This document shows, piece by piece, positions 2-15,857 of a stretch of 64,000 bases of DNA. The notes under the pieces are model-generated. The model saw only the letters and a list, made by a program, of their open reading frames with translations. It searched no databases and had not been told where the DNA came from. The position numbers were made by a program, and so were the translations under genes. How positions within the stretch are numbered: position 1 is the first letter of the stretch; every line of letters starts with the position of its first letter. This DNA is from Hydrogenobacter sp. T-2. GTDB lineage: Bacteria > Aquificota > Aquificia > Aquificales > Aquificaceae. Location: positions 1,122,041 through 1,186,040 of the forward strand of contig NZ_CP117180.1 in NCBI RefSeq assembly GCF_033971325.1. Direction: 5' to 3'.

Positions 2-115
2 ATAGAAGTTAGGATGGTAGTGCCAAGAAGCACTATAGATGAGTATGGTATAAAGGTAGGCGATAAGGTATACGTTATGATAGAAAACCAGAATGTATTC
101 CTTTTCAAGAGATAA
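2..115 (+). CDS. C-terminal end of a TOBE/Mop-like domain protein (5' end outside window)
   Basis: The frame is open from the window edge to a TAA and encodes the last 37 residues of a protein. The tail, with a VGDKVYVMIEN-type strand followed by a short basic end, resembles the TOBE/Mop oxyanion-binding domain of molybdate or tungstate ABC-transporter ATPases and ModE regulators. That would fit a neighbourhood full of molybdenum/tungsten enzymes. Only this fragment is visible, so the full architecture is unknown. It converges on the NifV-like gene with an 8-base gap. Confidence 0.5.
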   Translation: MEVRMVVPRSTIDEYGIKVGDKVYVMIENQNVFLFKR

Positions 116-123
116 TTTTCCTT

Positions 124-1083
124 TTAGCTCTTCTTTGAATACTTTCCAAAGGCAAAGCTCATTTTTCTTCCAATAATCTCTGGATTGAAGGGTAGATAAG
201 TCCTATTGGATTTTAAAAGTCCATCTATGTGAATGCTTGATTTGTTTACGAAGGCATTTCTTCCTACTATAGGCTTGTTGGGATGCACCCTTAGACCCTT
301 ATTTTCTATAAGATACTCTATGGCTTGGTATATCTTCTTTAGGTCAACTCCCGTCTCAATCCCCTGTATGATATCAAGGTAAAAAACAACCTCCTCTGTT
401 GGCGTTATCCCGCATCTCTCCCCAAGTCCGAGAAGTGAGGTGTTTATGAACCTTGCACCACTTAAGGATGCTACCACTGCGTTTGCAGTTGCCATGCCAA
501 AGTCGTTGTGAAGATGAACCTCTACGTCAATCATGGAGGATATATTTTTCACAAGCCTCTGGGTTTGTATTGGGTTTAAAACTCCCACCGTATCCGAAAG
601 CCTTACTCTGTCCGCCCCTAAGCTTTTTACATGCAGAACAAAGTCATATAAAAAAATCTCCTCAGCCCTTGACGCATCTTCAAGCCCAACTGAAGTATAA
701 AGCCCAATAGACTTGCAGTAAGGAATAAGGTCCTTTGCAAGCTCAAGAATGTAATGTCTATCCTTTTTCAGTTTCTCCCTTAACATAATGTCTGAAATTG
801 GAAAAGCTATTTCCACCCTTTTTACACCACACTGGATAGATAGCTCCAAGTCCTTAGGGTTTGCTCTGTTCCAAACTATAACCCTATCACCGAACCTCCC
901 TTTAACCAATTCTTTTATGAATGCCCTCTCTTCCTCGCTGTGAGCTGGAACACCCACCTCTATCTCTTCCACACCCGCAGAGGCTATAAGGTAGAAAAGG
1001 CACCTTTTTTCTTCATAGGAAAGCTCCAGCTCCTTTGACTGGACACCTTCTCGCAGGGTCGTATCTGTAATAAAAACCCTCAT
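124..1083 (-). CDS. nifV: NifV-like homocitrate synthase (HMGL/isopropylmalate synthase family), short form
   Basis: The 319-residue TIM-barrel protein carries family signatures: DTTLREG at 7-13 (substrate/metal), RLSDTVG at about 161-167, the metal-binding HLHND at 190-194 and a GLGERCG loop near 220. Family members condense acetyl-CoA with a 2-oxoacid; in a nif setting the expected product is homocitrate, the organic ligand of FeMo-co. The protein stops just after the GKHSG-equivalent (GKYSKKS), so it lacks about 60 C-terminal residues of usual NifV. The start ATG overlaps the stop of the upstream NifS-like gene (ATGA), indicating translational coupling. It is last in the AOR operon. A citramalate or isopropylmalate role cannot be excluded. 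Confidence 0.72.
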   Translation of the reverse strand: MRVFITDTTLREGVQSKELELSYEEKRCLFYLIASAGVEEIEVGVPAHSEEERAFIKELVKGRFGDRVIVWNRANPKDLELSIQCGVKRVEIAFPISDIMLREKLKKDRHYILELAKDLIPYCKSIGLYTSVGLEDASRAEEIFLYDFVLHVKSLGADRVRLSDTVGVLNPIQTQRLVKNISSMIDVEVHLHNDFGMATANAVVASLSGARFINTSLLGLGERCGITPTEEVVFYLDIIQGIETGVDLKKIYQAIEYLIENKGLRVHPNKPIVGRNAFVNKSSIHIDGLLKSNRTYLPFNPEIIGRKMSFAFGKYSKKS

Positions 1084-2147
1084 GTTAAGGCTCCTATACT
1101 GTGGAGTGTGTTTCTTAATGTATACAAAAACCTCTCTAATTCATCAATGGGGACTAAAGGTGGTAGCCTAAAGCTAAGAAGGTGGTCAAAACCACACCTT
1201 CTTCTGTTTGCCATACATGGAGTGGAAGTATTTAGATAGAAACCCCCTCTTTCTAAGAGAGATATGACCATCTCCAGTTCTACACCTTGTAAGCCAAAAG
1301 AAAAGAGGGCTGGAGCCTTACAGCCCTCCTTGAAAGCTGGTGGCAGAGGCAGGTTTTCCAAGACAAGCCCATCATACATTTCAAAGCTCTTTTTTATTTC
1401 ATCTCTTTTTTCCATTAAAAACCTCACAGATTGGGACAAAAGGTATATACCAAATAGATTTTCCTCACCTGCCCTTACCCCCCTTTCCTGAATACCCCCT
1501 TCAATAAGAGGCTTTAGTCTAATGCCCTTTTTAACATATAGAAAACCCACCCCTTGAGGAGCCATCAAAGAAGGTCCATCAAAACTCGCCATATTCAGCT
1601 CCTCCATGCTTATGCTGGGATAGTAAAGACCCCACATATCAAAGTGACATACCACATTGGGATTGACCTCCTTGACCGCAGAGACTATACCCTTAATATC
1701 CCTAAGGGTGGAAGTTTCTCTGCAGACAGCACCCATTGTAACCATTAGAGTATCTTCTCTAACCTGCTCTGCAACAGCCTGAGGGTCTACCCATCCCTTT
1801 TCGTCAGTTTGTATGTATACCACCTCAAAGCCCTGCCTTTCAAGCCCTTTTAGAGGATGGGTGATAGATATATGTTCAAAGTTTGTGGTGAGTATACTGC
1901 CCTTTTTACCGTATACATAGCCTTTGATGGCTAAATTGTTGCTCTCTGTAGAGCTTGAGGTGTATATAACCTCAAGGTTAGAGCATCCCAAAAAGCTCGC
2001 CAAAACACCCCTTGACCTTACCAGCATCTCCTTTGACCTTGTTGACAAGCTGTTTATACCAGTTGGATTTATGAAAAAAATGGATAAAAGTTCTTGCCTA
2101 AAGGCTCCATCAAGGGGTTGAGAAGAGGTAGGGTCAAGAAGTAGCAT
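1080..2147 (-). CDS. NifS/IscS-like class V aminotransferase-fold protein lacking the PLP lysine
   Basis: The 355-residue protein aligns by eye with NifS over its length: TSSSTESNN near 63-71, the FEHISI histidine near 92, the HFD motif at 168-170 and GGIQERGVRAGEEN near 217-230. The Schiff-base segment, usually (S/G)HKxxxPKG, reads GPSLMAPQG (191-199), so the catalytic Lys is Ser193 and the preceding His is Pro192. The Gln after the HxD motif is also lost. I re-read these codons from the raw sequence. The cysteine loop is remodelled to STPCMANRRRC. It is probably not a PLP cysteine desulfurase; a scaffold or sulfur-carrier partner role is speculation. It lies between AOR and nifV with overlapping ends; SD GAGGAG precedes the ATG. 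Confidence 0.78.
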   Translation of the reverse strand: MLLLDPTSSQPLDGAFRQELLSIFFINPTGINSLSTRSKEMLVRSRGVLASFLGCSNLEVIYTSSSTESNNLAIKGYVYGKKGSILTTNFEHISITHPLKGLERQGFEVVYIQTDEKGWVDPQAVAEQVREDTLMVTMGAVCRETSTLRDIKGIVSAVKEVNPNVVCHFDMWGLYYPSISMEELNMASFDGPSLMAPQGVGFLYVKKGIRLKPLIEGGIQERGVRAGEENLFGIYLLSQSVRFLMEKRDEIKKSFEMYDGLVLENLPLPPAFKEGCKAPALFSFGLQGVELEMVISLLERGGFYLNTSTPCMANRRRCGFDHLLSFRLPPLVPIDELERFLYTLRNTLHSIGALT

Positions 2148-3933
2148 GCGTAAACTCCTCCATAGAAAGCCTTATCAAGGTTTCCTTCTTTGGTATACCC
2201 AATTCATCCCATCCAAAAGCCTGATAAAATTCCTTTATCATCGCATTAAGCTCCTGCAGGCTTGTTCTATAGCCCTTTTCCGATGGCTCCTCTAAAATCC
2301 TGCGTGGTAGAGTATCATCCTTTCTGGAAAAGCCTTCCCTTACATTAAAGAGCCTTTCAAGGGTGTAAACCCTCTCTCCAACTGCGTATAGCTCCTCCAT
2401 AGACATGTCCCAGTCCATTAGGGCGTTTACCATGTCAAGTATCTTCTCATTAAGGGTTAAGCCCACAACCCTCTCCGCACTTAGACAGTAAATAATACTG
2501 TTTACTATACTGGTCCATACCGCAAGGTCTTTCCCCACCTTGCCCTTTCCCTCCCATTTTCCCAGAGGCGTTATGTTGTTCTCCTCAAGACCAGGTCTTA
2601 TATCACAGTGAACAGGACCTCTGTTGGCTACCGCATAACCAAGGGCTTGAGTTTTTACAGCTCTTGGAGAATGCCCCGCTGTTTCCATACCCTTTACCGT
2701 CATCACAAACTCGCCCCCTACCCCTAACCTTCGAGATGCCTTCTCAGAGCCTTCAGCAAGAAGGTCTCCTATACCCTCTCTAAAGGCAATTTTCCTTAAA
2801 AGCTCCCTAACAGCCTCTGTGTTGCCAAAGTAAAGCTCAAGCCCATCCAAGTCTTCTCTTTTTAAGAGCCCTTTCTCATAGCACTCCATCACCCAAGCTA
2901 CCACACCACCGGTTTGTATCTGACCAAGCCCAAGCTCGTCAGTAAGCCTATCAAGCTCTATAAGATGGTCCAAGTTTCCATTTCCTATGATAGTTCCCAT
3001 GGCGTATATGCCCTCATACTCGGGTCCTACCGTAAAGGTATTTTGAGCCACGGAATACTTTCCGCAGGGAACTATGCATCCGGGACAGGATACATCCTTT
3101 ATTACCCTCTCTCTTAATCTTTCACCGCTGACCTCTTCTGCATAGGGGAAAACCTCCTTCTGCCAGTTGTAAGAGGGTAAAATTCCAAGGTGTTGAAGGT
3201 GCATTACTCCTGCGGAGGTTCCATACTTTATGAGATTTTTAACGCCCGGATGGCTGTATACAGCCTTCTCAAATTCTTTTACGAAGTCTATAAGCCTTTT
3301 AGGGTTTTTGGGTTCTATTAGCTTAGTTCCTCTTACGGTTATTGCCTTTATTCTTTTTGACCCCATCACTGCACCCATACCCCCTGTGCCTACAGCCCTC
3401 AGGTCTGAGATAATACAGGCATATTTAACAAGATTCTCCCCTGCAGGCCCAATTACCAGAGCCTTTATGTCCTCTCCATATCTTCTTTTTAGTTCTTGCT
3501 GAGCTTGACTGGTGTGGAAGCCTCTCAGATATTCAGCATCAAAAAAGTAAACTCTTTGGTTTTCTATGTGTATGTGTGTCCATTGGTCACAAGAGCCAGT
3601 TATTATAATGCCATCCCAACCTGCAAACTTACATTCATGACCAAACTCCCCTCCACAGAAACCCTTGGTAAATCCCATGGTTTGAGGTGACTTGGAATAT
3701 ACACCAAACTTTGAGGACATAGGCACAAGTGTACCGTTGGCAGGACCAGTATTTACAATAAGTATGTTTTCCTCAGAGAGCGGGTCTATACCCTTTTTCA
3801 TAAGGGTGTATAGAAGATAAGCACCTATGCCGTTACCCCCTATGTACCTTTCCACAACCCGCTCAGGCACCTCGTAAACATCCACCCTTTTGTGCGTAAG
3901 GTCTATAAACAGATATCTGCCAAACCAACTCAT
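2134..3933 (-). CDS. Aldehyde:ferredoxin oxidoreductase family tungsten/molybdo-pterin enzyme
   Basis: The 599-residue length and the N-terminal block (GGNGIGAYLLY, NTGPANGTLVP, SKSPQTMGFTKGFCGG) are typical of AOR enzymes, which bind a tungsten or molybdenum bis-pterin cofactor and a [4Fe-4S] cluster and oxidise aldehydes to acids while reducing ferredoxin. A CPGCIVPC motif near residue 285 provides three cluster cysteines. The start overlaps the ferredoxin stop (ATGA) and the 3' end overlaps the NifS-like gene. Together with a MoaD-like protein and a dicluster ferredoxin it forms a self-contained W/Mo oxidoreductase module. The operon starts at a sigma-54 promoter with a NifA site, so co-expression with nitrogenase is likely. 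The aldehyde substrate is unknown. Confidence 0.88.
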   Translation of the reverse strand: MSWFGRYLFIDLTHKRVDVYEVPERVVERYIGGNGIGAYLLYTLMKKGIDPLSEENILIVNTGPANGTLVPMSSKFGVYSKSPQTMGFTKGFCGGEFGHECKFAGWDGIIITGSCDQWTHIHIENQRVYFFDAEYLRGFHTSQAQQELKRRYGEDIKALVIGPAGENLVKYACIISDLRAVGTGGMGAVMGSKRIKAITVRGTKLIEPKNPKRLIDFVKEFEKAVYSHPGVKNLIKYGTSAGVMHLQHLGILPSYNWQKEVFPYAEEVSGERLRERVIKDVSCPGCIVPCGKYSVAQNTFTVGPEYEGIYAMGTIIGNGNLDHLIELDRLTDELGLGQIQTGGVVAWVMECYEKGLLKREDLDGLELYFGNTEAVRELLRKIAFREGIGDLLAEGSEKASRRLGVGGEFVMTVKGMETAGHSPRAVKTQALGYAVANRGPVHCDIRPGLEENNITPLGKWEGKGKVGKDLAVWTSIVNSIIYCLSAERVVGLTLNEKILDMVNALMDWDMSMEELYAVGERVYTLERLFNVREGFSRKDDTLPRRILEEPSEKGYRTSLQELNAMIKEFYQAFGWDELGIPKKETLIRLSMEEFTHATS

Positions 3934-4151
3934 GAGTATACCTCCAATGCCCTAAGGGTGCAAAACTCAACGCAGTAGTGTTCCTTACAATCTGTGCATG
4001 CATCGAGGCTAAAGGCCACAGGTCTGTGCCCTAAGTCTGTGTATATCTTTATGGAGGAGAACCTCGTGTTAAAGCCCCCTGTTCTGTAAAAGGAGCAGGC
4101 AAGCATACACCTCTTACATCCAGAGCAGGCGTCCAAATTGACCTTTACCAT
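3930..4151 (-). CDS. Small ferredoxin-like electron carrier of the AOR operon
   Basis: This 73-residue protein has two cysteine groups, CSGCKRCMLAC near the N-terminus and CTDCKEHYCVEFC near the C-terminus, consistent with one or two [4Fe-4S] clusters in a HycB/AOR-associated ferredoxin fold. It probably carries electrons to or from the adjoining AOR. Its Shine-Dalgarno is formed by the last codons of the upstream MoaD-like gene (GGA GGA TGA), so translation is coupled. The stop overlaps the AOR start by four bases. Confidence 0.8.
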   Translation of the reverse strand: MVKVNLDACSGCKRCMLACSFYRTGGFNTRFSSIKIYTDLGHRPVAFSLDACTDCKEHYCVEFCTLRALEVYS

Positions 4152-4152
4152 A

Positions 4153-4407
4153 TCATCCTCCTGCGGTTGGGAGCGTTATTACCAGCTCGTCATCCTCTTT
4201 TACAGGAGCATTAAGCTCTGATATGAGCTCGCCATTCAGTATAAGCACCACACCCTCCCAAAGGCCTTTTTCATGGAAGATCAGCTCCTCTATCTCTGCT
4301 AAGTTGGACAGCCTTCTTATAACTTCTTCTACGCTTTTAACTTCCCTTAACTCAAAGCTGTCTTTTCCAGCAACATAACTTAGATAGCCCAAAAGCTTTA
4401 CACGCAT
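4153..4407 (-). CDS. MoaD/ThiS-like beta-grasp sulfur carrier
   Basis: The 84-residue beta-grasp protein ends in Gly-Gly (LPTAGG), the C-terminal tail that is adenylated and thiocarboxylated in MoaD and ThiS. It probably donates sulfur to the pterin dithiolene of the AOR cofactor. It is first in the AOR operon; the predicted sigma-54 start site is only a few bases upstream of the ATG, implying a very short leader. The two terminal Gly codons double as the ribosome-binding site of the ferredoxin gene. No MoeB-like activating enzyme is visible in the window. Confidence 0.8.
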   Translation of the reverse strand: MRVKLLGYLSYVAGKDSFELREVKSVEEVIRRLSNLAEIEELIFHEKGLWEGVVLILNGELISELNAPVKEDDELVITLPTAGG

Positions 4408-4421
4408 CTCACATAGATATA

Positions 4422-4437
4422 TGCAATAAATATACCA
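4422..4437 (-). promoter_or_regulatory. Sigma-54 (-24/-12) promoter of the AOR-nifV operon
   Basis: Read on the minus strand, TGGTATATTTATTGCA has GG and GC dinucleotides at the exact sigma-54 spacing (consensus TGGCACGN4TTGCA). The -24 half is weaker than consensus. It lies 15-30 bases upstream of the MoaD-like ATG and points into that operon. Confidence 0.72.
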
Positions 4438-4477
4438 AGACTTTTCCCTTCTTTTTGTATTATTTATTACATAAGGT

Positions 4478-4493
4478 TGTAAGCTACCTTACA
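4478..4493. promoter_or_regulatory. NifA upstream activator site (TGT-N10-ACA)
   Basis: TGTAAGCTACCTTACA is an exact TGT-N10-ACA site with extended dyad symmetry (TGTAAG-N4-CTTACA). It is also embedded in TAAGGT-N8-ACCTTA. It lies about 75 bases upstream of the predicted AOR-operon start site and 40 bases upstream of the activator gene on the other strand, so it could serve activation of the operon and autoregulation. Confidence 0.65.
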
Positions 4494-4532
4494 TAATAGT
4501 GTTGGAAACATTACACAAAGGAGGTCTTTCGC

Positions 4533-6125
4533 TTGGCATCAATGTTGCATATATTTAAATTGATGATGGATGAGAAGTTTACAAGCCTTGAAGTTAATCT
4601 GCTTTATAACCTCTCAAAAGAGCTAACCAGTATGAACCAGGACCCGGAGAGGATTATAAGGTGGGTGGTGCGTATGATTGGCGAAATACCAGGCATCAGA
4701 AGGGTTGTGTTTTACATAGCGGATAGTGAAACCTCCAAAGCATCTCTTATTGCCAGCGTTGGCGTGGACGAGGGTAGCATAACCCTCAGTAAAAAGGAGG
4801 GGGTGCTGGGCTTCGTGCTAAGGGAGGGCTATCCTGTGGTTATAAAGAACCTCTCAGAAGAGCCCATCTTTTTAAACAAAATAAGGAGGCAAAGTCTGAC
4901 AGACGTAATATTTATTGCGGTGCCCGTAAAGCATAGCAATAGGGTTGTGGGAATAATAACGGTTGATGTGAGTAAAGAGTTTGGCAAGACAGCTCATCTC
5001 ATGGAGCTACTGGTTATGATATCAAACCTCATAGGTAATTACATATACACTTATATGAAGCTAAAGGAAAAGGAAGAAGCCTATAAGGAAGAGATAGCTA
5101 TACTAAAGAAGGAGGTGTTGAAAAAGTTCAAGGTTGAGGGTTTTGTGGGTGGGAGTAAGGCTTATCAAGATATTGTAAAACAGGTGATAAAGCTGGCAAA
5201 CCTTGACACCATAGTGATGATACGCGGAGAGTCTGGAACGGGTAAGACTACAGTGGCAAGAGCCATACATTACCTTTCTCCCAGAAAGAACCGCTCCTTT
5301 GTTGAGATAAACTGTTCCACCATACCTGCGGAGCTCTTTGAGGCTGAGCTCTTTGGATACGAAAAGGGAGCTTTTACGGGTGCCTACGCCAGCAAGCCAG
5401 GTAAGGTGGAAATAGCCAACGGCGGAACTCTCTTCTTTGACGAGGTGGGTGACCTAAGCCCTGCGGTGCAGGCAAAACTACTCAGGTTCATACAGACAAA
5501 GGAGTTTGAGAGGTTAGGAAGTAATAAAACCCTTAAGTCGGACGCCAGAATAATAGTCGCCACCAACAAGAACCTTGAAGAAATGGTGGCAAAGGGTGAG
5601 TTTAGGGAAGACCTCTATTACAGAATATCAGTATACCCTCTCTATATTCCACCCCTCAGGGAAAGAAAGGAAGACATCCCCGTTTTGGTTGAGCACTTTC
5701 TTAAACGGATGAGTAGCACTATGGGTAAGAACATAGGAATAGAAGACGAAGCCCTCAGAGTTTTAGCGTCCTGTGACTTTCCTGGAAATGTAAGAGAGCT
5801 TATAAACTGTCTTACGAGGGCTGTTATAAACTCCAACGGAAAGGTTATAAAAGCACAGGATATCTCTTGTATAGGCTCTAGGGTATGTTTTTCTCACATG
5901 ATAAAAAGTTATGCTAAACCAAAAAGCGAGGAGAAACAAGAACAGATAAACACACCCCCTGTAAAAAGTGAAGAGAAGCCCTCAAAGGATGAAAGAACTC
6001 TCATAATAGAAACTCTGGAAAAGGTTGGATATGTGCAAGCAAAAGCTGCAAGACTACTTGGAATGACCGTAAGACAGCTCAACTACAGAATAAAGAAGTA
6101 TGGAATACCAATAAAGAAAATTTAA
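4533..6125 (+). CDS. nifA: NifA-type sigma-54-dependent transcriptional activator
   Basis: The 530-residue protein has an N-terminal GAF domain (about 20-175), an AAA+ ATPase domain (about 205-440; Walker A GESGTGKT at 232-239, sigma-54 contact loop GAFTGA at 279-284, Walker B GGTLFFDE) and a C-terminal Fis-type helix-turn-helix (about 495-530). Cysteines 414, 426, 446 and 452 give C-X11-C-X19-C-X5-C, nearly the C-X11-C-X19-C-X4-C of oxygen-sensitive NifA proteins. TTG at 4533 is chosen because AAAGGAGG sits 8 bases before it; the next ATG is 17 bases away. The gene converges on nifX with a 4-base overlap. It probably activates both sigma-54 promoters in this window. Confidence 0.9.
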   Translation: MASMLHIFKLMMDEKFTSLEVNLLYNLSKELTSMNQDPERIIRWVVRMIGEIPGIRRVVFYIADSETSKASLIASVGVDEGSITLSKKEGVLGFVLREGYPVVIKNLSEEPIFLNKIRRQSLTDVIFIAVPVKHSNRVVGIITVDVSKEFGKTAHLMELLVMISNLIGNYIYTYMKLKEKEEAYKEEIAILKKEVLKKFKVEGFVGGSKAYQDIVKQVIKLANLDTIVMIRGESGTGKTTVARAIHYLSPRKNRSFVEINCSTIPAELFEAELFGYEKGAFTGAYASKPGKVEIANGGTLFFDEVGDLSPAVQAKLLRFIQTKEFERLGSNKTLKSDARIIVATNKNLEEMVAKGEFREDLYYRISVYPLYIPPLRERKEDIPVLVEHFLKRMSSTMGKNIGIEDEALRVLASCDFPGNVRELINCLTRAVINSNGKVIKAQDISCIGSRVCFSHMIKSYAKPKSEEKQEQINTPPVKSEEKPSKDERTLIIETLEKVGYVQAKAARLLGMTVRQLNYRIKKYGIPIKKI

Positions 6126-6508
6126 ATATAATCTGTATCCCCAGTCCTGTCTTTGGTAAGGGCTTTTCTTAGCCATGGAGGTGGGTTTTCTCTCAAGGTT
6201 TTTAAAAGTTGGTCTAATATATCCTTTATGGGTGTAGGCTCGTTAACCTTGACGGGATGGATCTTTGCCTTAACTACCCTTGCGGCCGCCGTGGCCCCTA
6301 TGGCTATAACATAGACTATAGCACAATCCTTTATGGCTTCAACTTTTGAATTTATCTTGTCATACTCCTCGTCTGGCACGTCTTCAAAGTTTCTATACTC
6401 CAAAAATTCGTAGCCCTTCTCATCTATCTCGTAAACAGCCATGGTTCTTGCGTGACCAAAATGGTCATCCACCTTATCAAGACTTTTGGTTGCAAAGGCT
6501 ACCCTCAT
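6122..6508 (-). CDS. nifX: NifX-family FeMo-cofactor carrier
   Basis: The 128-residue protein begins MRVAFATKSLDKVDDHFGHA, the hallmark N-terminus of the NifX/NafY/VnfX cofactor-binding family, with a conserved HFGHA loop. NifX shuttles NifB-co and the VK-cluster to and from NifEN during FeMo-co maturation. It is the last gene of the long nif operon, 3 bases after nifN, and its stop overlaps the 3' end of nifA on the other strand, so no terminator fits between them. Confidence 0.9.
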   Translation of the reverse strand: MRVAFATKSLDKVDDHFGHARTMAVYEIDEKGYEFLEYRNFEDVPDEEYDKINSKVEAIKDCAIVYVIAIGATAAARVVKAKIHPVKVNEPTPIKDILDQLLKTLRENPPPWLRKALTKDRTGDTDYI

Positions 6509-6511
6509 GGC

Positions 6512-7846
6512 TCACCTCCTTTTTATGTGCTCAGGAATATGATAAGATGCTTCTTCATCCCTTTCCATGAGTAGATTAGCAAGTTCAAAGACAAGGTTTG
6601 CAGTGCCTTCATAGCCTATATAGCCCTTTAAAAAGTGTCCAAGTCTATCAAAAATAGGAATTCCAACCCTGTAATGTGGAGCTTTTATCTCCTTGGCAAT
6701 ATGCCTTAGGTTTGTATTTCCTATAAGTAAGTCTATATCCGAGCCATCTATATGTAAGAGTATATCTTCAAGGTCTCCAATGATAACCTTACCTACTGGC
6801 AGATTCTCCAAACCATCAGCGTATGTGGGGCTTACAATTAGGGGAACCTCCGCGCCCATCTCTTTAGTGAGGAAGTTAGCCATACCCCAGAGAAAATCAG
6901 GCTCACCAGCCACCACTACCTTTTTACCAGTTAGATAAAAGTGGCTGTCCACCATGGCATCTAAAAGCCTATCTCTCCATCTTTTAACCGACTCTGGTGG
7001 CTCCTTCCCGCTGAGGTTTATAAGCAGGCTTATGAGACTGTCAAAGTTTTCCAGACCTATAAGGCTATCGTAATAAAACATGGGTATCATAAACTTCTTT
7101 TCCAAATACTCCCCTGCTTCCCTTACGCTCTCACCTATGGCTATGGTTATAGTAGAGGCTGGCATCATTTCTATGTCTCTTATATCAGTTCCATATTTTG
7201 TTATGCTGGAAAATGCTTTAGCCTGCCCGTCCAAACTGCGCATATCTGGGAATATAACCGGCTTGAAACCAAAGCTCTTTATAAGCTCTTCTATAGCGTC
7301 TATATCCTTTGCGGTCATGGAATAACTGATTAGAAGGTTTATTTGATTTGGGCTTTTCTTCATTGGAGCTCGTAGGAGGCTTCTTAGGATAGAGCTAACC
7401 GCCTTTGAATAGCCCTCGTGGAAGGAGCCCACGTAGTCGGGTGTGGAAACAAAGACTATCTTTGTATGAGAATACTCATCGTAGAGTTCTCTAAACATCT
7501 TTATAGAACCCTCAGTGTCATCTCCTCTCGTTTCGCTTACACCGGTGGAAACAACGCCAACAAACTCTGGTTTATTCTTTTCTATGACATTTTTGAGGGC
7601 TGTATGCAGGTTTTCGTCGCCACCCATAATGGTGACTATCTCTGAAAGTGCAGTGGTTTGCATGGGTATGTTCTCCCAAAAGTGCCTTGTTAGAAAGGTC
7701 TTGGCAAAGGCTGCACATCCTTGAGAGCCGTGCATTATGGGCATGGAATTTTTAACACCCAGAATCGCATACACAGCACCAAGTGGTTGGCTCATTTTTA
7801 GAGGATAGACAGAACAAGCCTTCGAAGACCTTATAAGCTCTGCCAT
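6512..7846 (-). CDS. nifN: Nitrogenase FeMo-cofactor scaffold subunit NifN
   Basis: The 444-residue NifK homologue shows SKACSVYPLKMSQPLGA near 8-24 and a GSQGCAAFAKTFLTRHF block near 41-57, both diagnostic of NifN. It forms the NifE2N2 scaffold on which NifB-co is converted to FeMo-co. Its start lies inside the last codons of nifE (16-base overlap). It lacks the third P-cluster Cys region of NifK (STGVSE instead of TTCMAE), as expected for NifN. Confidence 0.93.
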   Translation of the reverse strand: MAELIRSSKACSVYPLKMSQPLGAVYAILGVKNSMPIMHGSQGCAAFAKTFLTRHFWENIPMQTTALSEIVTIMGGDENLHTALKNVIEKNKPEFVGVVSTGVSETRGDDTEGSIKMFRELYDEYSHTKIVFVSTPDYVGSFHEGYSKAVSSILRSLLRAPMKKSPNQINLLISYSMTAKDIDAIEELIKSFGFKPVIFPDMRSLDGQAKAFSSITKYGTDIRDIEMMPASTITIAIGESVREAGEYLEKKFMIPMFYYDSLIGLENFDSLISLLINLSGKEPPESVKRWRDRLLDAMVDSHFYLTGKKVVVAGEPDFLWGMANFLTKEMGAEVPLIVSPTYADGLENLPVGKVIIGDLEDILLHIDGSDIDLLIGNTNLRHIAKEIKAPHYRVGIPIFDRLGHFLKGYIGYEGTANLVFELANLLMERDEEASYHIPEHIKRR

Positions 7847-9189
7847 GGTGCCTTCCTCCTGTAAAGTTTGAACACGGGGCTGTAAAGGGTTCTTACAAGC
7901 TCCTGTGCAAGGATGAGCATACCATCATAGCCTGCATAGGGCTTTATCCTCTCTTGGTTTGTATCCAGGAAGGGGATACCTTCTTTGAGTGCTACAAACT
8001 TACTCCGACCCCCCGCCATTAGGAGGTCTACATCATACTCCTTAAACATACGAACCAGCTCTTTTGGATTAGGGTCATCCACTATTTTGCCTTCATCTCC
8101 AAGTAGCTCTATCATCCTTTCCTTGTCCCCTGAGGTGCTTTTTTTGCCACTGGTTCCTACTACCACCATACCAAGCTCCTGAACCTGAGAAACCATTGAC
8201 CAACTCTTTACCCCACCAGTGTTTATAAGAACCCTTTTCCCTCTCAACTTTTCTATGTAGGGCTGTAGCTTTTCTTTTATCCTCTTTTCCTCTCTTTCTA
8301 TTAACCTCTCAGTTCTCTCTATGAGTTCCTCACTACCAAGCAATCTTGCAAAGTTTCTAAGGGCATCGCTGGTGTCCTTTATACCATAAAAGGAGCCTTC
8401 AAAGTAGGGTATTCCATACTTTTCCTCCATCTTTCTTGCGAGGTTCAGCATGGTTTTTGAACACACAACCATGTTAACCCTTGCCCTGTGAGCACAGGCA
8501 ACCTGCCTGTAGGTAACATCCCCGCTTATACAGGCAAGTATCCTTATACCAAGCTCTTTAAACAGAGGTTTTACCTGCCAAAGCTCCCCCGCTATGTTGT
8601 ATTCACCCAGTAGGTTCACATCATAGTCTGTGGTGTATTCTGGCTCTTGAGTTCCTATTACATATCTAAAAAGGGCATCACCCGCAAGTTTATTGCCGAG
8701 GTTCTTACTACCCACAAACCCGGGAGATTCCACTGGTATAATAGGCACACCCAAATCCTCAGAAGCCTTCTTACATACGCTCACAACATCATCGCCTATC
8801 ATAGCAGGCACGCAGGTCTGATATACAAAAACCGCAGAAGGTTTATACCTTTCTACCACCTCTTTTATAGCTCTGTATAGTTTCTTTTCACCCCCATGCA
8901 CCACATCCATCTCGCTCATATCCGTAGTAAGCCCAATTCTGTAGTTGGTAGAAAAGGAGGAACGCGTCCCTCTGTTGTCCCAGCTGTTTCCTGCACAAGG
9001 AATAGGTCCATGAACGAGGTGCAGGGCATCCGAAATGGGAACTAACGCTATCTGTGCACCATCAAAGGCACATCCGCCAGATGCACCGCCTGGCTTTGGT
9101 TTTGAACAGCCCTGTTTCTTTTCCTTCTCGCTCTTTAGCTTATTATGTCCACAATTAGGTTCAAAGAAGAATTCTTCAAGCCTTTTCAT
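7831..9189 (-). CDS. nifE: Nitrogenase FeMo-cofactor scaffold subunit NifE
   Basis: The 452-residue NifD paralogue contains GGCAFDGAQIALVPI, GPIPCAGNSWDNRG and the QTCVPAMIGDD motif, which supply the cluster cysteines of the NifEN scaffold. A Cys/Lys-rich N-terminal stretch (CGHNKLKSEKEKKQGC) precedes the fold. It sits after the DegT-like gene with a 12-base gap and SD GGAGG, and overlaps nifN. Confidence 0.93.
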   Translation of the reverse strand: MKRLEEFFFEPNCGHNKLKSEKEKKQGCSKPKPGGASGGCAFDGAQIALVPISDALHLVHGPIPCAGNSWDNRGTRSSFSTNYRIGLTTDMSEMDVVHGGEKKLYRAIKEVVERYKPSAVFVYQTCVPAMIGDDVVSVCKKASEDLGVPIIPVESPGFVGSKNLGNKLAGDALFRYVIGTQEPEYTTDYDVNLLGEYNIAGELWQVKPLFKELGIRILACISGDVTYRQVACAHRARVNMVVCSKTMLNLARKMEEKYGIPYFEGSFYGIKDTSDALRNFARLLGSEELIERTERLIEREEKRIKEKLQPYIEKLRGKRVLINTGGVKSWSMVSQVQELGMVVVGTSGKKSTSGDKERMIELLGDEGKIVDDPNPKELVRMFKEYDVDLLMAGGRSKFVALKEGIPFLDTNQERIKPYAGYDGMLILAQELVRTLYSPVFKLYRRKAPWQSL

Positions 9190-9201
9190 GGCACACCTCC
9201 T

Positions 9202-10266
9202 TTAATGGTCCACACTGCCTGCACCTATTTGGACTGCGTGTTCCTTCAATCTTTCACACACAAAATACACATCATCCTCTTCCATATCCTGATGTAAAGG
9301 TAAAAGGAGGGCTCTTGTGCTCACCTCGTGGGCTATATGGAGATGCTCGAGCGGTTTGCCTTCCAGCATGTCCTGAGATATGGGATACTCCAAGACCTCT
9401 ATTCCATCGTCATACATAAGGTTCTTAATGAGCCCTCTCGCATCCTTTGAGTATCTCTTACCAAAATGCACAGAAAAGTAAGACCAGCACATCTTTGTTA
9501 CATACTTGGGAGGATATTGAGCCTTTATCCCTTCTATGGCAAGCAGATAGCGAGAATATAGATTGGCTAAATCTCCTCTAATCGCAATAGTATCGTCAAG
9601 TTGTTTGACCTGAGAGAATATTACGGAGGACATAATATCATCCAGTGGGGGTGAATCCTCCTTTAGTCTTTCATAAATAAGTCTATCGTCGGTCAAAACT
9701 ATGCCACCGTATCCCATCAACACGGAGCTCTCTGAAAACTCAAGGAAAGAAACATGCCCAAAAGAGCCTGCTGGTTTTCCCTTATACTCGCTGAATAGTG
9801 TCTCTCTTGAATCCTCTATCAATAGGATACCTTTGCCGTTGACCAACTCCCTGAGAGCGTCCCAGTCCATGGGGTTTCCCAAGGAATTACTGCCTATGAT
9901 AACTTTTATGTCCTCAGACATAACATTAGAAAGCCTTTTTGTGTCAATGTTTAAAAACCACCTTTCAGCGTCAGGATAAAGGGGGCAAGCACCTATGAGC
10001 CTTAGGTAAGGGGAAAAATGTTTGTGAAAGGATAGGGGAGAGATTAACACCTTTGAGCCATTACTTACACCTGCATACTTTAAAAGGGTTAGAAGTGGCA
10101 GTATCAGGTCTCTAACTGCAAGCGCGTATCTTCTTTTCGTATATTCACAGAAGAAGTCTTCCAGCTCTCGCCTTTTTAGTCCTGAAAAGGCATAAGGGTA
10201 GCTCATGGCTTCAACTGCGGAAAACATGTTCTCTTTTGAAAAGCTACGAGGCTTAAAGGTTATCAT
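9202..10266 (-). CDS. DegT/DnrJ/EryC1/StrS aminotransferase-fold protein lacking the PLP lysine
   Basis: The 354-residue protein follows the DegT/DnrJ pattern: an N-terminal YAFSGLKRRELE-type segment, SPLSFH, a NSLGNPMDWDAL stretch, the IEDSRE acidic motif near 150-155 and YKGKPAGSFGHVSF. Where family members have a Lys five residues before GEGG, this one reads SESSVLMGYGG, with Ser180 in the lysine position; I checked the codons. PLP aminotransfer by the usual mechanism is therefore unlikely. It lies between a TPR-like gene (overlapping it) and nifE, so it belongs to the nif operon. A structural or small-molecule-binding role in nitrogenase assembly is possible. The exact function is unknown. 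Confidence 0.75.
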   Translation of the reverse strand: MITFKPRSFSKENMFSAVEAMSYPYAFSGLKRRELEDFFCEYTKRRYALAVRDLILPLLTLLKYAGVSNGSKVLISPLSFHKHFSPYLRLIGACPLYPDAERWFLNIDTKRLSNVMSEDIKVIIGSNSLGNPMDWDALRELVNGKGILLIEDSRETLFSEYKGKPAGSFGHVSFLEFSESSVLMGYGGIVLTDDRLIYERLKEDSPPLDDIMSSVIFSQVKQLDDTIAIRGDLANLYSRYLLAIEGIKAQYPPKYVTKMCWSYFSVHFGKRYSKDARGLIKNLMYDDGIEVLEYPISQDMLEGKPLEHLHIAHEVSTRALLLPLHQDMEEDDVYFVCERLKEHAVQIGAGSVDH

Positions 10267-10726
10267 CTTCCCTTACCTCTATAAGTCCTAACATTGTGGA
10301 AATACCAAACTCGCCCTTCTCATCTATCTCCTTAAGGAGGCTTAGTATCTCTGTAGCCTTTTCTAAGGAACCAAGCCTCATAAGCATAAAGGCGTATGCG
10401 GAGTAAGCATTTATGAAAAGCCTTATATCGTAATCCTCAAGGTTAGACCTTAGGTAGGCTAACATTTCCCTTTTTTCCTCGGGTATGTTCCTCTTTGAAC
10501 GAAGCATATCCATAATTTTTAGAGCTACCTGAATAGCCATAGAGTAGTTTTGTCTATAAAAGAAAAACCTATATGCAGAAACAAGCACATTCAGGTTGTC
10601 CCTGTCTTCCTCAAGGGCTTTTAACACATACTGGCTTGACTTTTCTGTGTCCTCCCAGCTCTCTACAGCCCTTTGTAAGTTCGCCTTTACATGTTCTGGA
10701 GCTTCAAACCAGGAAAAGGAAGTCAT
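10253..10726 (-). CDS. Helical-repeat (TPR-like) protein of the nif operon
   Basis: The 157-residue protein is all-helical, with TPR-like pairs (ASWEDTEKSSQYVLKALEE-like, NYSMAIQVALKIMDML, SAYAFMLMRLGSLEKATEIL). No enzymatic motif is visible. It overlaps the DUF269 gene upstream (4 bases) and the DegT-like gene downstream (14 bases), so it is translated with them. A scaffold or chaperone role in nitrogenase assembly is an inference from location only. Confidence 0.6.
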   Translation of the reverse strand: MTSFSWFEAPEHVKANLQRAVESWEDTEKSSQYVLKALEEDRDNLNVLVSAYRFFFYRQNYSMAIQVALKIMDMLRSKRNIPEEKREMLAYLRSNLEDYDIRLFINAYSAYAFMLMRLGSLEKATEILSLLKEIDEKGEFGISTMLGLIEVREDDNL

Positions 10727-11175
10727 ATGTTTGCCACCTCGATGTATTTTTCAACAAGCTCTAAAGCCTTATCTATAAACTTTTGTGCCTGCAAAGCCAT
10801 TTCATCAAGGGATTTAAAGCGAAACTTGTTGGCATCCCTTATGCTTTTGTTGACAAGGATAAGGCGTCCCGAGTATATAAGCACAATGCCGTTACCTTCC
10901 TCATCAAGGTTTATGACCACAGAGGTTAAAAGACCAGAAGACTTTTCTATGAGAGCACCTATAGCTTTGAAGTAGGCATGTAGTTTAAGCAGAGCCTTTG
11001 GGTCCACCTCGCAGTGTCCCATAAGAGAAAGAGAAGCTTGTTTCTCAGACTTTGTTAGGAAAAGATGGTTCAGGATGTCATGGTCGCTCTTTTTTTCCCA
11101 TGTTCCGTAGGTGTCGTAGGCTCTTATCTGATTTACTATCTCTTTAAGGATCTCTTCTCCCCTTTCCGCTACCAT
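10723..11175 (-). CDS. NifX-associated protein (DUF269)
   Basis: The 150-residue protein carries the DUF269 signature: VNQIRAYDTYGTWEKKSD near the N-terminus, LIYSGRLILVNKSIRDANKF in the second half, and a C-terminal helix with LELVEKYIEVA. Members are found almost only beside nifX/nifEN and are needed for full nitrogenase cofactor maturation in some diazotrophs. Here it follows the CRP-like gene (7-base overlap), with AGGAGG of that gene's last codons acting as its ribosome-binding site. Confidence 0.88.
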   Translation of the reverse strand: MVAERGEEILKEIVNQIRAYDTYGTWEKKSDHDILNHLFLTKSEKQASLSLMGHCEVDPKALLKLHAYFKAIGALIEKSSGLLTSVVINLDEEGNGIVLIYSGRLILVNKSIRDANKFRFKSLDEMALQAQKFIDKALELVEKYIEVANI

Positions 11176-11741
11176 ATCCTTAACCTCCTACTTTCCAAAG
11201 TTTTTAAACCGCTCATACACCTTACCGTATGCTCATAACTGAGCCCAGCCATGCTGGATATCTGAAATTTGTTTACGGTGAGTTTTATGTTTCTTTCTTC
11301 TAAGTTTTTATCCAACAACTGCAGAAGGTTTCTTATTCTATCCGTTGCCCTTGTGGCAGAAAGAAGGGTAAAAACTCTGTATAGGTAAGCCTGCCTGTCA
11401 AGAAGGGAGGAGAAGAGCTCAAGGATAAGCCCTGGCTCAGTCTCTCCCAGTTTTTTAAGCCCGTCCATGCTTGTGTGGAGCACCTTTGACGCTGTTATAG
11501 CCCTAGCTCCGTAACTTGTTTTATAGGTGCTATTAGAGATAACACCAAACACATCGCCCGGTAGCAGAAGGTCCAACACGTTCCTTTTGGATTTTACAAA
11601 GGTGTATAGCTCAACCGCACCATCTTCGAGCACATATATACCCTCTTCACTTGAGCCTTCCGAGATTATACTTTCTCTCCTTTTATAACTTAGCTCCCTT
11701 ATAAGTCCGCAACGTGTGTATTTTTTCAGCTCCTCAACCAT
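11169..11741 (-). CDS. CRP/FNR-family regulator embedded in the nif operon, short C-terminus
   Basis: The 190-residue protein has a cyclic-nucleotide-binding-like beta-barrel (IISEGSSEEGIYVLEDGAVELY; LLLPGDVFGVI near 65-80), a long dimerisation helix and a helix-turn-helix (KFQISSMAGLSYEHTVRCMSGLKTLE). It ends at about the recognition helix plus one strand (RRLRIW), about 20 residues short of CRP and missing the wing. No FNR-type N-terminal cysteine cluster is present. It is 4 bases after the second nifK ORF. It might sense redox or energy state and tune nif expression; the target is unknown. Confidence 0.8.
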   Translation of the reverse strand: MVEELKKYTRCGLIRELSYKRRESIISEGSSEEGIYVLEDGAVELYTFVKSKRNVLDLLLPGDVFGVISNSTYKTSYGARAITASKVLHTSMDGLKKLGETEPGLILELFSSLLDRQAYLYRVFTLLSATRATDRIRNLLQLLDKNLEERNIKLTVNKFQISSMAGLSYEHTVRCMSGLKTLESRRLRIW

Positions 11742-11745
11742 GGCT

Positions 11746-12633
11746 CTACCTTATAAGGTCAAAGCTGTAGTCGGTTTTGGCTATTTCTATGGTGTTTCTG
11801 TCTGTCTCGTCAAGTATGGTGTTTACTATCCAAGTAAGCAGGTTTATAGCACCCTTGTAAAAGAGTATCCCGTATCTATGTAGATGGTGTCTGTCAAAGA
11901 TGGGATACCCTATCCTTATGAGTGGTGTTTTTGTGTCTCTCCATAGGAATTTTCCATAGGAAGTTCCTATCATGTAATCCACGGGTTCTGTAAACAGAAG
12001 GCTTCTCATATGCCAAAGGTCTTTGCCAGGAAAGACTTGTGCATATTTACCATTGTCATATTTTGCACATAGCTCTTTTATCTCGTTTGCCCATTCCTCT
12101 CCAGCGTTAGTGCATAATATGTGCACTGGCTCCGCACCAAGCTCTAACAGAAAGGAGGTGATGCCATAGACGAAGTCTGGGTCACCCCAGAGGGCAAACC
12201 TCTTGCCGTGTATCCAATAATAGGAGTCCGCCATGGCGTCAAGGAGTTTCTGCCTTTCTACGGAGAGGCTTTCTGGCACTGGTTTGCCAGTTAGCTTGGA
12301 GATGAGCTGTAAAAATTCATCCGTCCCCTGCACGCCGTAGGGTCTTACTATATAGGCGGGTTGTTTCCATGCGTTTTCTATGTATTCCCTCGTCTTCTGA
12401 GTAGAGTATTTCTGAAAACTTATGGTAGCAAGGGAAAACTTAGCCCTGTATATGTCCTTTATGGGAGTTCCACCGTAGTAGAGTTTATACTCTCCTGTAA
12501 GCCCAGAGTCTAAGTTGTCCGAAGGGTCGGAGAGTATTATGCATTCTTCACCAAACTCTTTTATTATCCTTTTGGTTTCCCTAAAATCTTCCAAGTAAGT
12601 ATGAAATCCAAGTATAAGGTTTAAAGTGCTCAT
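11746..12633 (-). CDS. nifK: C-terminal half of nitrogenase MoFe protein beta chain (split nifK, part 2)
   Basis: The 295 residues begin at the NifK position that normally reads (K)INIIPGFDTY (here [19 protein letters not shown]) and continue with ILSDPSD, YYGGTP and [16 protein letters not shown] to a natural C-terminus. The first ORF supplies the N-terminal domain. Start ATG overlaps the first ORF's stop (ATGA), and AAAAAGGAGG lies 7 bases upstream, so independent re-initiation is expected. All P-cluster cysteines are in part 1; this part supplies the second and third Rossmann-like domains. A sequencing frameshift is less likely because the junction has its own good SD and falls at a domain boundary. 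Confidence 0.85.
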
Positions 12634-13379
12634 GGCTGTGCCTCCTTTTTCTCTTCAAGCCAAGCGAGCAGTCCACCATTCTGGTAGAACTCTCCGCTCT
12701 CTGAGTCATACTTGTCTATGTTGTCCACGCCGTATTTATCAAAGTAGTTTGTCATATACTCTAGGATGCCCTTTAGCTGATTATCGTATCCTGTGATATG
12801 AGAACCAACAAAGGATGGTGTATGGGCAAAGGGTACTGGAAAGTCTTCTGGTATAAGCCCCTTTTCCTTTGTAACCCTTATAAAGCCGTTGAGGTCATCT
12901 CCTATAACTTCCGCCATGCATGTGGTGCTTACCGCTATCATCTTAGGTCTGTATAGTGCTATGGCGTTCTGCAAACCCTCGTTCATATTGCTTAAACCTC
13001 CAAAGACCGCCGCATCTTCTGTCATGGAAGTGGATACCATAGGCACTGGTTCCTTAAAGTGCCTTGCCATATGTGTTCTGAAGTAAGCCACACAACCCTG
13101 AGAACCATGAGAAAAGGGCAGGGTCTTTTCAAAACCAAGGGCGCAGAAGAGCGCCCCAAGAGGCTGGCAGGCTTTGGCGGGATTTATTGAAATCGCTTCC
13201 CTTTTAAAGTTGAGCTCTCTGTATTCCCAGCTCTTAGTCCACTCCGCAACCTCTTTTACCTTATCCTCTCCTACCCAGTTCTCAAAGTTTTCCCTTTTGT
13301 TCTTTATCATCTGGGCAAACTCATCGTTCCTAAAACACTCAAGATGGTCTTTTATGTTTAGTTCATGATGTATACCCAT
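12630..13379 (-). CDS. nifK: N-terminal half of nitrogenase MoFe protein beta chain (split nifK, part 1)
   Basis: The 249 residues match the N-terminal domain of NifK, with P-cluster cysteines Cys71 (KACQPLGA), Cys96 (GSQGC) and Cys154 ([11 protein letters not shown]) and the ARHFKEP segment. After the [17 protein letters not shown] block comes an extra stretch of about 40 residues ([12 protein letters not shown]...[15 protein letters not shown]) where other NifK proteins run straight into the next domain, then TGA. Parts 1 and 2 sum to 544 residues, close to full-length NifK plus this linker. It lies 13 bases after nifD. Confidence 0.87.
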
Positions 13380-13392
13380 AGCTATTACCTCC

Positions 13393-14841
13393 TTACTGCT
13401 CCCAAGGAGCCTTTATAAGTTTCCATACACCGCCGTTTACAGCCATATCCATATCCCTCGCAAATATCTCAAAGCCCTCTATGCCGTGATAGGGTCCGCT
13501 GTAATCCCAGCTGTGCATCTGTCTGAAGGGCACTCCCATCTTCTGGGACTGATACTTTTCCTTTATGCCAGAGGCTACAAGGTCTGGCTTGAGCTTTCTC
13601 GTGAGCTCTTCTATCTCATAGGCTGTGGCATCGTCAACCACTATGGTTGCGTTTTTGTCTATGTAGTGGAGGGTTCTATCGTAGTCATCCTGGTGAGCAA
13701 ATTCGTATCCTGTGGCTACCACGTTCATCCCCAGGTCCTCAAAGGCTGTTATGATATGCCTTGGTCTTAGTCCGCCCACATAGAGGATAACCGTTTTGCC
13801 CTCCAACCTTGGTCTGTATTTCTCTATTACCCTGTCAAGCCTTGGCTTATATTCCTTCTCTATAAGCTCCTCCGTTCTTTCTTTTATCTTGTCATCAAAT
13901 AGGCTTGCTATCTTTCTCATAGATTCAAAGATCTGGGTTGGTCCAAAGAAGTTGTACTCTACCCAAGGTATTCCAAACTTCTCCTCAAAATACCTCGCAA
14001 GATAGTTGGATGATCTATAGCAGTGCACCAAGAGATATTTGACCTTTACAGCGTTTGCCACCTCGCTTAATGTTCCGTCGCCTGACCATTGGGTAACCAC
14101 CCTTAACCCCATGGCTTCGAGTATTTTTCTAGAAGCCCAAGCATCACCACCTATGTTGTAGTCACCCCATATAGCCACATCATAGGGAGATGGTTCTATC
14201 TTCTGTCCCTCAACCTTTTTCTCGTAAATCCAGTCTCTCATGGAGTCGTTGGCTATATGGTGTCCTAAGGACTGAGAAACGCCTCTAAAACCTTCACATC
14301 TTACTGGGACAACTAATTTACCGATTTCCTTTGCGGTCTGTCTTGCTACAGCCTCTATATCGTCCCCTATGAGACCTATTGGACATTCAGATTGTATTGT
14401 AATTCCCTTTACAAGAGGAAACAACTCATTTAGTTCCTGTATGGCTTTCGTGAGCTTTTTATCGCCGCCGAAGACTATATCCCTTTCTTGAAAGTCCGTA
14501 GTAAAGTGTGGTGTCACAAAGGTATCAACACCCGTTGTTCCTATGTAGTAGTTTCTGCGACCAGCCCTTGAGTAGTATCCACAGCCCACGGGCCCGTGGG
14601 ATATATGTATCATATCCTTGATAGGACCCCACACCACGCCCTTTGAACCAGCATAGGCACAGCCTCTAACGGTCATAACGCCGGGTCTGGTTTTGATGTT
14701 GGATTTGGGAGCACACTTGGCGTCCCCCGGCTCAGTTACAACTACATGCTTTTGCCTATCCTTTTTAGCCTTTGAGGGATAGGCACTCAACACCTCTTCT
14801 ATAAACTTTAGTGCGGTTTCCTTATCTACGATTATACCCAT
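13393..14841 (-). CDS. nifD: Nitrogenase MoFe protein alpha chain
   Basis: The 482-residue protein has the P-cluster cysteines Cys61 ([11 protein letters not shown]), Cys87 (GPVGCGYYS) and the [10 protein letters not shown] cysteine, the FeMo-co ligand cysteine in [11 protein letters not shown] and the cofactor histidine in [11 protein letters not shown]. Catalytic residues therefore look intact for a molybdenum nitrogenase; vanadium and iron-only AnfD/VnfD-type features are not seen and no delta subunit is present. It follows nifH by 12 bases. Confidence 0.96.
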
Positions 14842-14853
14842 GATAAAACCTCC

Positions 14854-15720
<867 letters not shown>

Positions 15721-15734
15721 TCACCCTCTATACA

Positions 15735-15750
15735 TGCAATATTTGTGCCA
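15735..15750 (-). promoter_or_regulatory. Sigma-54 (-24/-12) promoter of the nifH operon
   Basis: Minus-strand TGGCACAAATATTGCA matches the sigma-54 consensus at both boxes with exact spacing. The predicted start site is near 15,724, leaving a leader of about 28 bases before nifH. It resembles the -12 half of the AOR-operon promoter (TATTGCA). Confidence 0.9.
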
Positions 15751-15831: not shown

Positions 15832-15857
15832 TGTAAGAAAGATTACCTTTGTAAGGT
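15832..15857. promoter_or_regulatory. Imperfect NifA-type site and AAGGT/ACCTT dyad upstream of nifH
   Basis: TGT-N10-ACC (15,832-15,847) is one base from the NifA consensus and sits about 110-125 bases above the predicted nifH start, a normal activator distance. It overlaps ACCTT-TGT-AAGGT (15,845-15,857). The half-sites TGTAAG, AAGGT and ACCTT recur in the site in front of nifA. Confidence 0.45.

Follow-up and report, generated by a model that had tools for sequence, protein, structure and literature searches.

The window analysed here, 64,000 nucleotides of the Hydrogenobacter sp. T-2 genome, carries an operon in which genes for a MoaD-like protein, a ferredoxin and a tungsten/molybdenum-type aldehyde:ferredoxin oxidoreductase (AOR) are joined to those for a shortened NifV and a NifS-like protein. 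In the hot-spring Aquificota that fix nitrogen, this nif-linked AOR probably represents a new accessory component for N2 fixation. We read the operon as an accessory module under NifA/sigma-54 control in which AOR and ferredoxin would feed electrons to nitrogenase, a reading to which we assign a probability of about 0.5. The five genes, recognised from the list of ORFs and from family profiles, occupy positions 124-4407 of the minus strand (Table 1). The MoaD-like and ferredoxin genes are separated by 1 nt, the ferredoxin and AOR genes overlap by 4 nt, the AOR and NifS-like genes by 14 nt, and the NifS-like and NifV-like genes by 4 nt; these coordinates and the Pfam and NCBIfam assignments agree with the tightly overlapped operon proposed in an earlier note on this DNA. 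The operon is divergent from nifA and lies in the middle of a complete nif island, since nifA to nifH are found on one side of it and a nifI-type gene, nifB, a ferredoxin gene and a TOBE-like gene, left of the window, on the other. The TOBE/Mop-like gene is convergent with nifV and apparently closes the nifB gene string. Chance or mis-annotation as the origin of the operon was ruled out by the family scores and by the conservation of the operon and its promoters in relatives.

Table 1. Features of the operon and of the surrounding nif island (positions in the window)
Feature	Position	Strand	Basis or remark
TOBE/Mop-like gene, 3' end	2-115	+	molybdate-binding type, by eye
NifV-like homocitrate synthase, 319 aa	124-1083	-	PF00682 (HMGL-like) 1e-66
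NifS-like, aminotransferase-V fold	1080-2147	-	Aminotran_5 9e-29
AOR, 599 aa, nif-specific clade	2134-3933	-	PF02730/PF01314, model, tree
Ferredoxin, 73 aa, two 4Fe-4S motifs	3930-4151	-	4Fe-4S dicluster 1e-8
MoaD-like sulfur carrier, 84 aa	4153-4407	-	ThiS/MoaD PF02597 5e-7, TIGR01687
-24/-12 (sigma-54) site of the AOR operon, TGGTATATTTATTGCA	4422-4437	-	pattern match
NifA-type box TGT-N10-ACA, copy 1	4456-4471	.	perfect match
NifA-type box TGT-N10-ACA, copy 2	4478-4493	.	perfect; 22 bp from copy 1
NifA-type box TGT-N10-ACA, copy 3	4500-4515	.	perfect; 22 bp from copy 2
-24/-12 site of nifA, TGGCATCAATGTTGCA	4534-4549	+	pattern match
NifA: GAF, sigma-54 interaction domain, Fis-type HTH	4533-6125	+	all three domains above cut-off
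NifX	6122-6508	-	family profiles
NifN	6512-7846	-	family profiles
NifE	7831-9189	-	family profiles
DegT-like (DegT/DnrJ-type aminotransferase)	9202-10266	-	family profiles
157-aa protein	10253-10726	-	no Pfam match
DUF269 protein	10723-11175	-	family profiles
CRP/FNR-type regulator	11169-11741	-	between nifK and DUF269 gene, in nif operon
NifK, split in two ORFs	11746-12633 and 12630-13379	-	nitrogenase genes
NifD	13393-14841	-	nitrogenase genes
NifH	14854-15696	-	nitrogenase genes
-24/-12 site of nifH, TGGCACAAATATTGCA	15735-15750	-	pattern match

We analysed the distribution of AOR in diazotrophic and non-fixing relatives, a comparison that the earlier note had named as able to refute the link to nitrogen fixation and that did not do so. 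AOR was found in 6 of the 112 genomes of the order, precisely the ones whose nif cluster is substantially complete (6/6), and was not found in the remaining 106, two of which have decayed nif remnants and 104 of which have no nif genes. NifD is present in the six AOR-bearing genomes and in two others, G078 and G039. In G078 (locus L105) nifD contains nine stops and nifH, nifE and nifN are broken too, while in G039 (L106) a fragment of nifD is fused to a remnant of nifA; AOR was absent at both of these decayed loci. At the level of the phylum, a profile search (E <= 1e-100) of 136 genomes revealed no AOR beyond the six. For related AOR loci in organisms other than Aquificota, 78 in number, no nif genes were found within 10 kb, and the best 80 genome loci likewise gave no nif-linked AOR there, as judged by two motifs, one of them clade-specific, which divergent cases could escape. 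Since it is confined to nif-complete genomes among the Aquificota searched and no nif-linked relative was found outside, we consider the AOR of the operon to be dedicated to nif. Together, the position in the island, the conserved promoter architecture (below) and this co-occurrence strongly support the earlier proposal that the operon is tied to nitrogen fixation.

The six AOR-bearing genomes come from two families and represent five genera. Although they are placed in different families, G031 and G077 share one clade of nif-linked AOR, which fits transfer along with nif. The gene order in G077 is nifA, an fdxB-type ferredoxin gene with AOR, nifV, and then nifB, TOBE, ferredoxin, MoaD and ferredoxin genes; G031, whose contig begins at fdxB, matches this order from there on, with a NifS-like gene after AOR. 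In both genomes MoaD and its ferredoxin have thus been relocated behind nifB and yet remain within the nif island, so that the linkage of AOR to nif survives rearrangement. A caveat to the tie with nitrogen fixation comes from G029, tentatively H. thermophilus, in which AOR is intact although nifD is interrupted by a frameshift (L021, 10344-11285 and 11260-11787). This frameshift would suit the report that H. thermophilus TK-6 does not use N2 (PMC3111988), or it may be a sequencing error.

As can be seen from Table 1, the region between the operon and nifA contains two -24/-12 sites and three perfect TGT-N10-ACA boxes. The earlier note had described the -24/-12 promoter, as we also find, and a single perfect box, a count that has to be raised to three. 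The pattern TGGYAN6TTGCW matched three times in the 64 kb, against 0.7 expected, and the matches precede the AOR operon, nifA and nifH. Three boxes were reached in only 3 of 200,000 mononucleotide shuffles of the intergenic stretch. Over the whole window, TGT-N10-ACA occurs at the chance level (14 found, 13.4 expected), and therefore only the clustering and the conservation of the boxes carry weight. In relatives, the intergenic region has one box in G028 and two, 21-22 bp apart, in G029 and G050; all three genomes have -24/-12-like elements facing both divergent genes, including sites equivalent to TGGTATATTTATTGCA of the AOR operon. Boxes followed by a -24/-12 site also precede the nifI/nifB genes of L019 (boxes at 6327 and 6359, promoter at 6404) and nifH of G050 (9771 and 9802, promoter at 9872), and nifH of the window has NifA boxes with one mismatch, one of them at 15832.

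Control of the AOR operon by NifA and sigma-54 is thus well predicted. The boxes can also be read as CRP/NtcA-like sites (GTA-N8-TAC); and a CRP-family gene lies within the nif operon (11169-11741). We favour the NifA reading because nifA itself is the divergent gene, the boxes stand together with -24/-12 sites, and they recur in front of further nif genes. NifA itself scored 507 bits with TIGR01817, 21 bits below the curated cut-off (about 529). Its start is probably ATG 4563 or 4566, and not TTG 4533, because the -24/-12 site overlaps the start of the longest ORF. Downstream in the island, the two ORFs of the split nifK overlap at an ATGA and are read in different frames. G028, G029 and G050 have kept this split, and in G031 and G077 the nifK pieces share one frame; for Pampinifervens, a split NifK has been noted before (PMC12780486).

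The AOR protein scored above the cut-offs for both Pfam domains (AFOR_N, 2e-67, 227 bits; AFOR_C, 6e-118, 395 bits), and its structure model (pLDDT 94.8) gave TM scores of 0.93-0.96 against AOR from P. furiosus (PfAOR, 1aor), AOR from C. autoethanogenum (9g7j) and the electron-bifurcating AOR (9mqx). With these known enzymes, to which it is 32-36% identical, it shares the whole fold, the four Fe-S cysteines, Glu313, His448, Thr243 and Tyr312. The 4Fe-4S ligands C288, C291, C295 and C494 (PfAOR numbering), as well as E311, Y312, E313, T243 and H448, are kept in all six nif-linked AORs. It differs from the known AORs in being encoded in a nif operon and in the changes R186→T, D343→G, D489→N and T344→Q and a Cys after His448. 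We place D343 and D489 in the two pterin-contacting DxxGL(D/C) motifs of the PfAOR structure, and R186 in the RxxGR loop; R186 and D343 correspond to T183 and G337 of the window protein; in these elements D338 and C494 are kept, and D343G, D489N and R186T are present in 6/6 nif-linked proteins. R186 and D343 are invariant in PfAOR and in 55/55 sampled other AORs; the clade also has fixed D489N and the Cys directly after His448, and a clade-specific Asp at position 515, a Gly in all 55. Within the second shell described for AOR (Thr243, Glu313, Tyr427 and His448; PMC12096430), position 427 is His, as it is in 13 of the 55 other AORs. Since the catalytic and Fe-S residues are kept and residues of the cofactor motifs are changed, the AOR looks catalytically competent, as judged from its sequence, with an altered cofactor environment. 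It is under constraint similar to that of NifE (pN/pS 0.21-0.24 and 0.17-0.20, respectively).

In the tree, the six nif-linked AORs form one clade (100/100), and the nearest sequences to it are two from Bacillota (92/81), which are not near nif genes. The neighbourhood of one of them, L027, carries another AOR gene and genes for MoaD and ferredoxin, so the MoaD-ferredoxin-AOR cassette is not restricted to nif; genes that on inspection look transporter-like or catabolic are also nearby.

The MoaD-like protein (PF02597, 30.5 bits, cut-off 22.5) has a beta-grasp fold and ends in TLPTAGG. Given this C-terminal Gly-Gly and the MoaA found in the host genomes, synthesis of a W/Mo-pterin is plausible. 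The ferredoxin gene adjoins that of MoaD in all six nif-containing genomes, and its product is the presumed electron partner of AOR. The NifV-like protein, named NifV in the earlier note, is HMGL-like with a strong homolog only in nif-containing genomes (other copies being long and like IPMS or citramalate synthase), has the motifs DTTLREG and HxHNDxG (by eye), and has homocitrate synthase 6ktq as its best PDB match; it is, however, about 60 residues shorter at the C-terminus than standard NifV and scored 319 bits with nifV_homocitr (TIGR02660), under the cut-off of 463.

For the NifS-like protein, too, the earlier description has to be corrected. It shares with the NifS/IscS cysteine desulfurases the fold, the Asp and His of the PLP pocket and the active-site Cys of the loop (S-x-P-C), but scored 153 bits with TIGR03402 (cut-off 531), and the PLP lysine is replaced in all five copies, by S, S, S, F and Y. 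No internal aldimine is possible, which rules the protein out as a cysteine desulfurase, and thus as the sulfur donor for MoaD or FeMo-co. The lysine-less form is found only in five nif-containing genomes, each of which carries elsewhere a second, IscS-type homolog of a kind common to most genomes of the order. The DegT-like protein of the island also seems to lack its PLP lysine in four Aquificaceae copies (FSESSVL-MGYGG), while the copy of G031 retains it (FNKVLTTGKGG); it is odd that a single nif island should encode two PLP-fold proteins lacking this lysine.

The source of reduced low-potential ferredoxin in Aquificota has been described as unresolved (PMC10052474). Searches of the six nif-containing genomes for ETF/FixAB (control detected in 10/14 genomes) and for RnfC gave nothing above the cut-offs, and FixABCX and Rnf are thus not evident in them. 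As AOR is under predicted nif control, AOR with its own ferredoxin would be a natural low-potential donor, and electron supply from the pair to nitrogenase or to its assembly is, we infer, the best mechanism. The earlier note had already suggested that AOR may provide low-potential ferredoxin for nitrogenase or take part in cofactor supply, and this suggestion gains from the missing ETF/FixAB and RnfC hits and from the kept catalytic and Fe-S residues. A mobile MoaD-ferredoxin-AOR cassette would have been recruited into the Aquificota nif island and its transcription placed under NifA and sigma-54. The MoaD-like protein would give the dithiolene sulfur of the W/Mo-bis-pterin cofactor, and AOR may then turn an aldehyde into its acid at very low potential, with substrate, metal and direction all putative. 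By way of the 4Fe-4S cluster of AOR, electrons would reach the 2[4Fe-4S] ferredoxin encoded beside it, the likely acceptor, which could serve either NifH turnover or reductive maturation of the cofactor. It is possible that acetyl-CoA and NADH yield acetaldehyde, which AOR would convert to acetate and reduced ferredoxin, the acetate being re-activated with ATP. Such a loop, which seems thermodynamically sensible, would amount to ATP-driven transfer from NADH to low-potential ferredoxin where cells have neither FixABCX nor Rnf.

Our confidence in this electron supply is moderate, because eight electrons per N2 from an aldehyde would demand a large flux and we know of no aldehyde source for these autotrophs. 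The altered cofactor motifs (R186T, D343G, D489N) further complicate the reading. ETF and RnfC were also missing in the two non-fixing relatives searched, and therefore PFOR/OGOR or some other route could feed nitrogenase.

The main rival is a role in reductive cofactor assembly, with AOR and ferredoxin as a low-flux donor or oxidoreductase for the NifB and NifEN reactions, maturation of the P-cluster or FeMo-co, or handling of Mo, and not as the main electron supply of NifH. We regard this as possible, if tentative. AOR shares its operon with nifV and a NifS-derived protein, the MoaD-ferredoxin pair of two distant genomes lies behind nifB and next to a TOBE-type gene, and the cofactor-motif residues are unlike those of all sampled AORs; however, no known assembly step requires an aldehyde/acid redox reaction, the catalytic residues of AOR are retained, and many diazotrophs build FeMo-co without AOR. 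It is unlikely that an ordinary aldehyde-oxidising or detoxifying cassette hitch-hiked into the island with no N2-specific role. Although cassettes of this kind are known to be mobile (PMC1779556) and the one at L027 sits in a catabolic-looking setting, a hitch-hiker would not be expected to have NifA boxes and a -24/-12 promoter, to be missing where nif has decayed and from the other Aquificota genomes searched, or to be kept across five genera under constraint near that of NifE.

The altered residues also invite readings in which AOR would not oxidise free aldehydes. The bis-pterin site may have been redesigned for another task, such as Mo/W handling or a redox step in FeMo-cofactor assembly, with the PLP-free NifS-derived protein as partner; we consider this quite unlikely, and, if true, it would mean that nitrogenase maturation has a branch not known before. 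More doubtful still is a repurposed scaffold that lacks normal catalysis and binds or sorts W versus Mo, or holds a modified cofactor, and that would protect nitrogenase in tungsten-rich springs. The clade-specific loss of R186 and D343, the new Cys beside the catalytic His and the loss of the catalytic lysine from the PLP-fold NifS-like and, apparently, DegT-like proteins of the island would suit such a scaffold, but E313, H448, T243 and the four cluster ligands are kept, as are the MoaD and ferredoxin partners, and a dead scaffold would not require a dedicated ferredoxin.

There is nothing new in AOR, MoaD-AOR cassettes or nif regulons as such, and only the recruitment of the cassette into nif appears to be new. 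MoaD-AOR(-ferredoxin) was described as a mobile gene cluster by Iyer et al. in 2006 (PMC1779556); that cluster and aorABCDE of Aromatoleum aromaticum (PMC6365974) likewise have genes for a MoaD-like and a small Fe-S protein beside AOR, whereas the nif-linked operon lacks the FAD subunit and MoeB and has nifV and a gene derived from NifS attached, behind NifA-type control elements. With FixABCX, Rnf and NifF/NifJ the operon shares a proposed role as low-potential reductant and the link to the nif regulon, but the proteins are unrelated to those of the AOR module. Our literature search found no paper linking AOR with Aquificales nif genes, and in the literature searched the union of AOR with nif, the NifS derivative without its PLP lysine and the changed residues at the site of AOR all appear to be unreported.

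For thermophilic autotrophic Aquificota, which need an electron route to nitrogenase at 70 °C, a nif-specific AOR with its ferredoxin is a concrete candidate. The MoaD, ferredoxin and AOR cassette could also be tried with engineered nitrogenase, as a portable source of low-potential electrons. If confirmed, the finding would extend the accessory genes of nif by a new class of enzyme and tie tungsten/molybdenum-pterin chemistry to N2 fixation.
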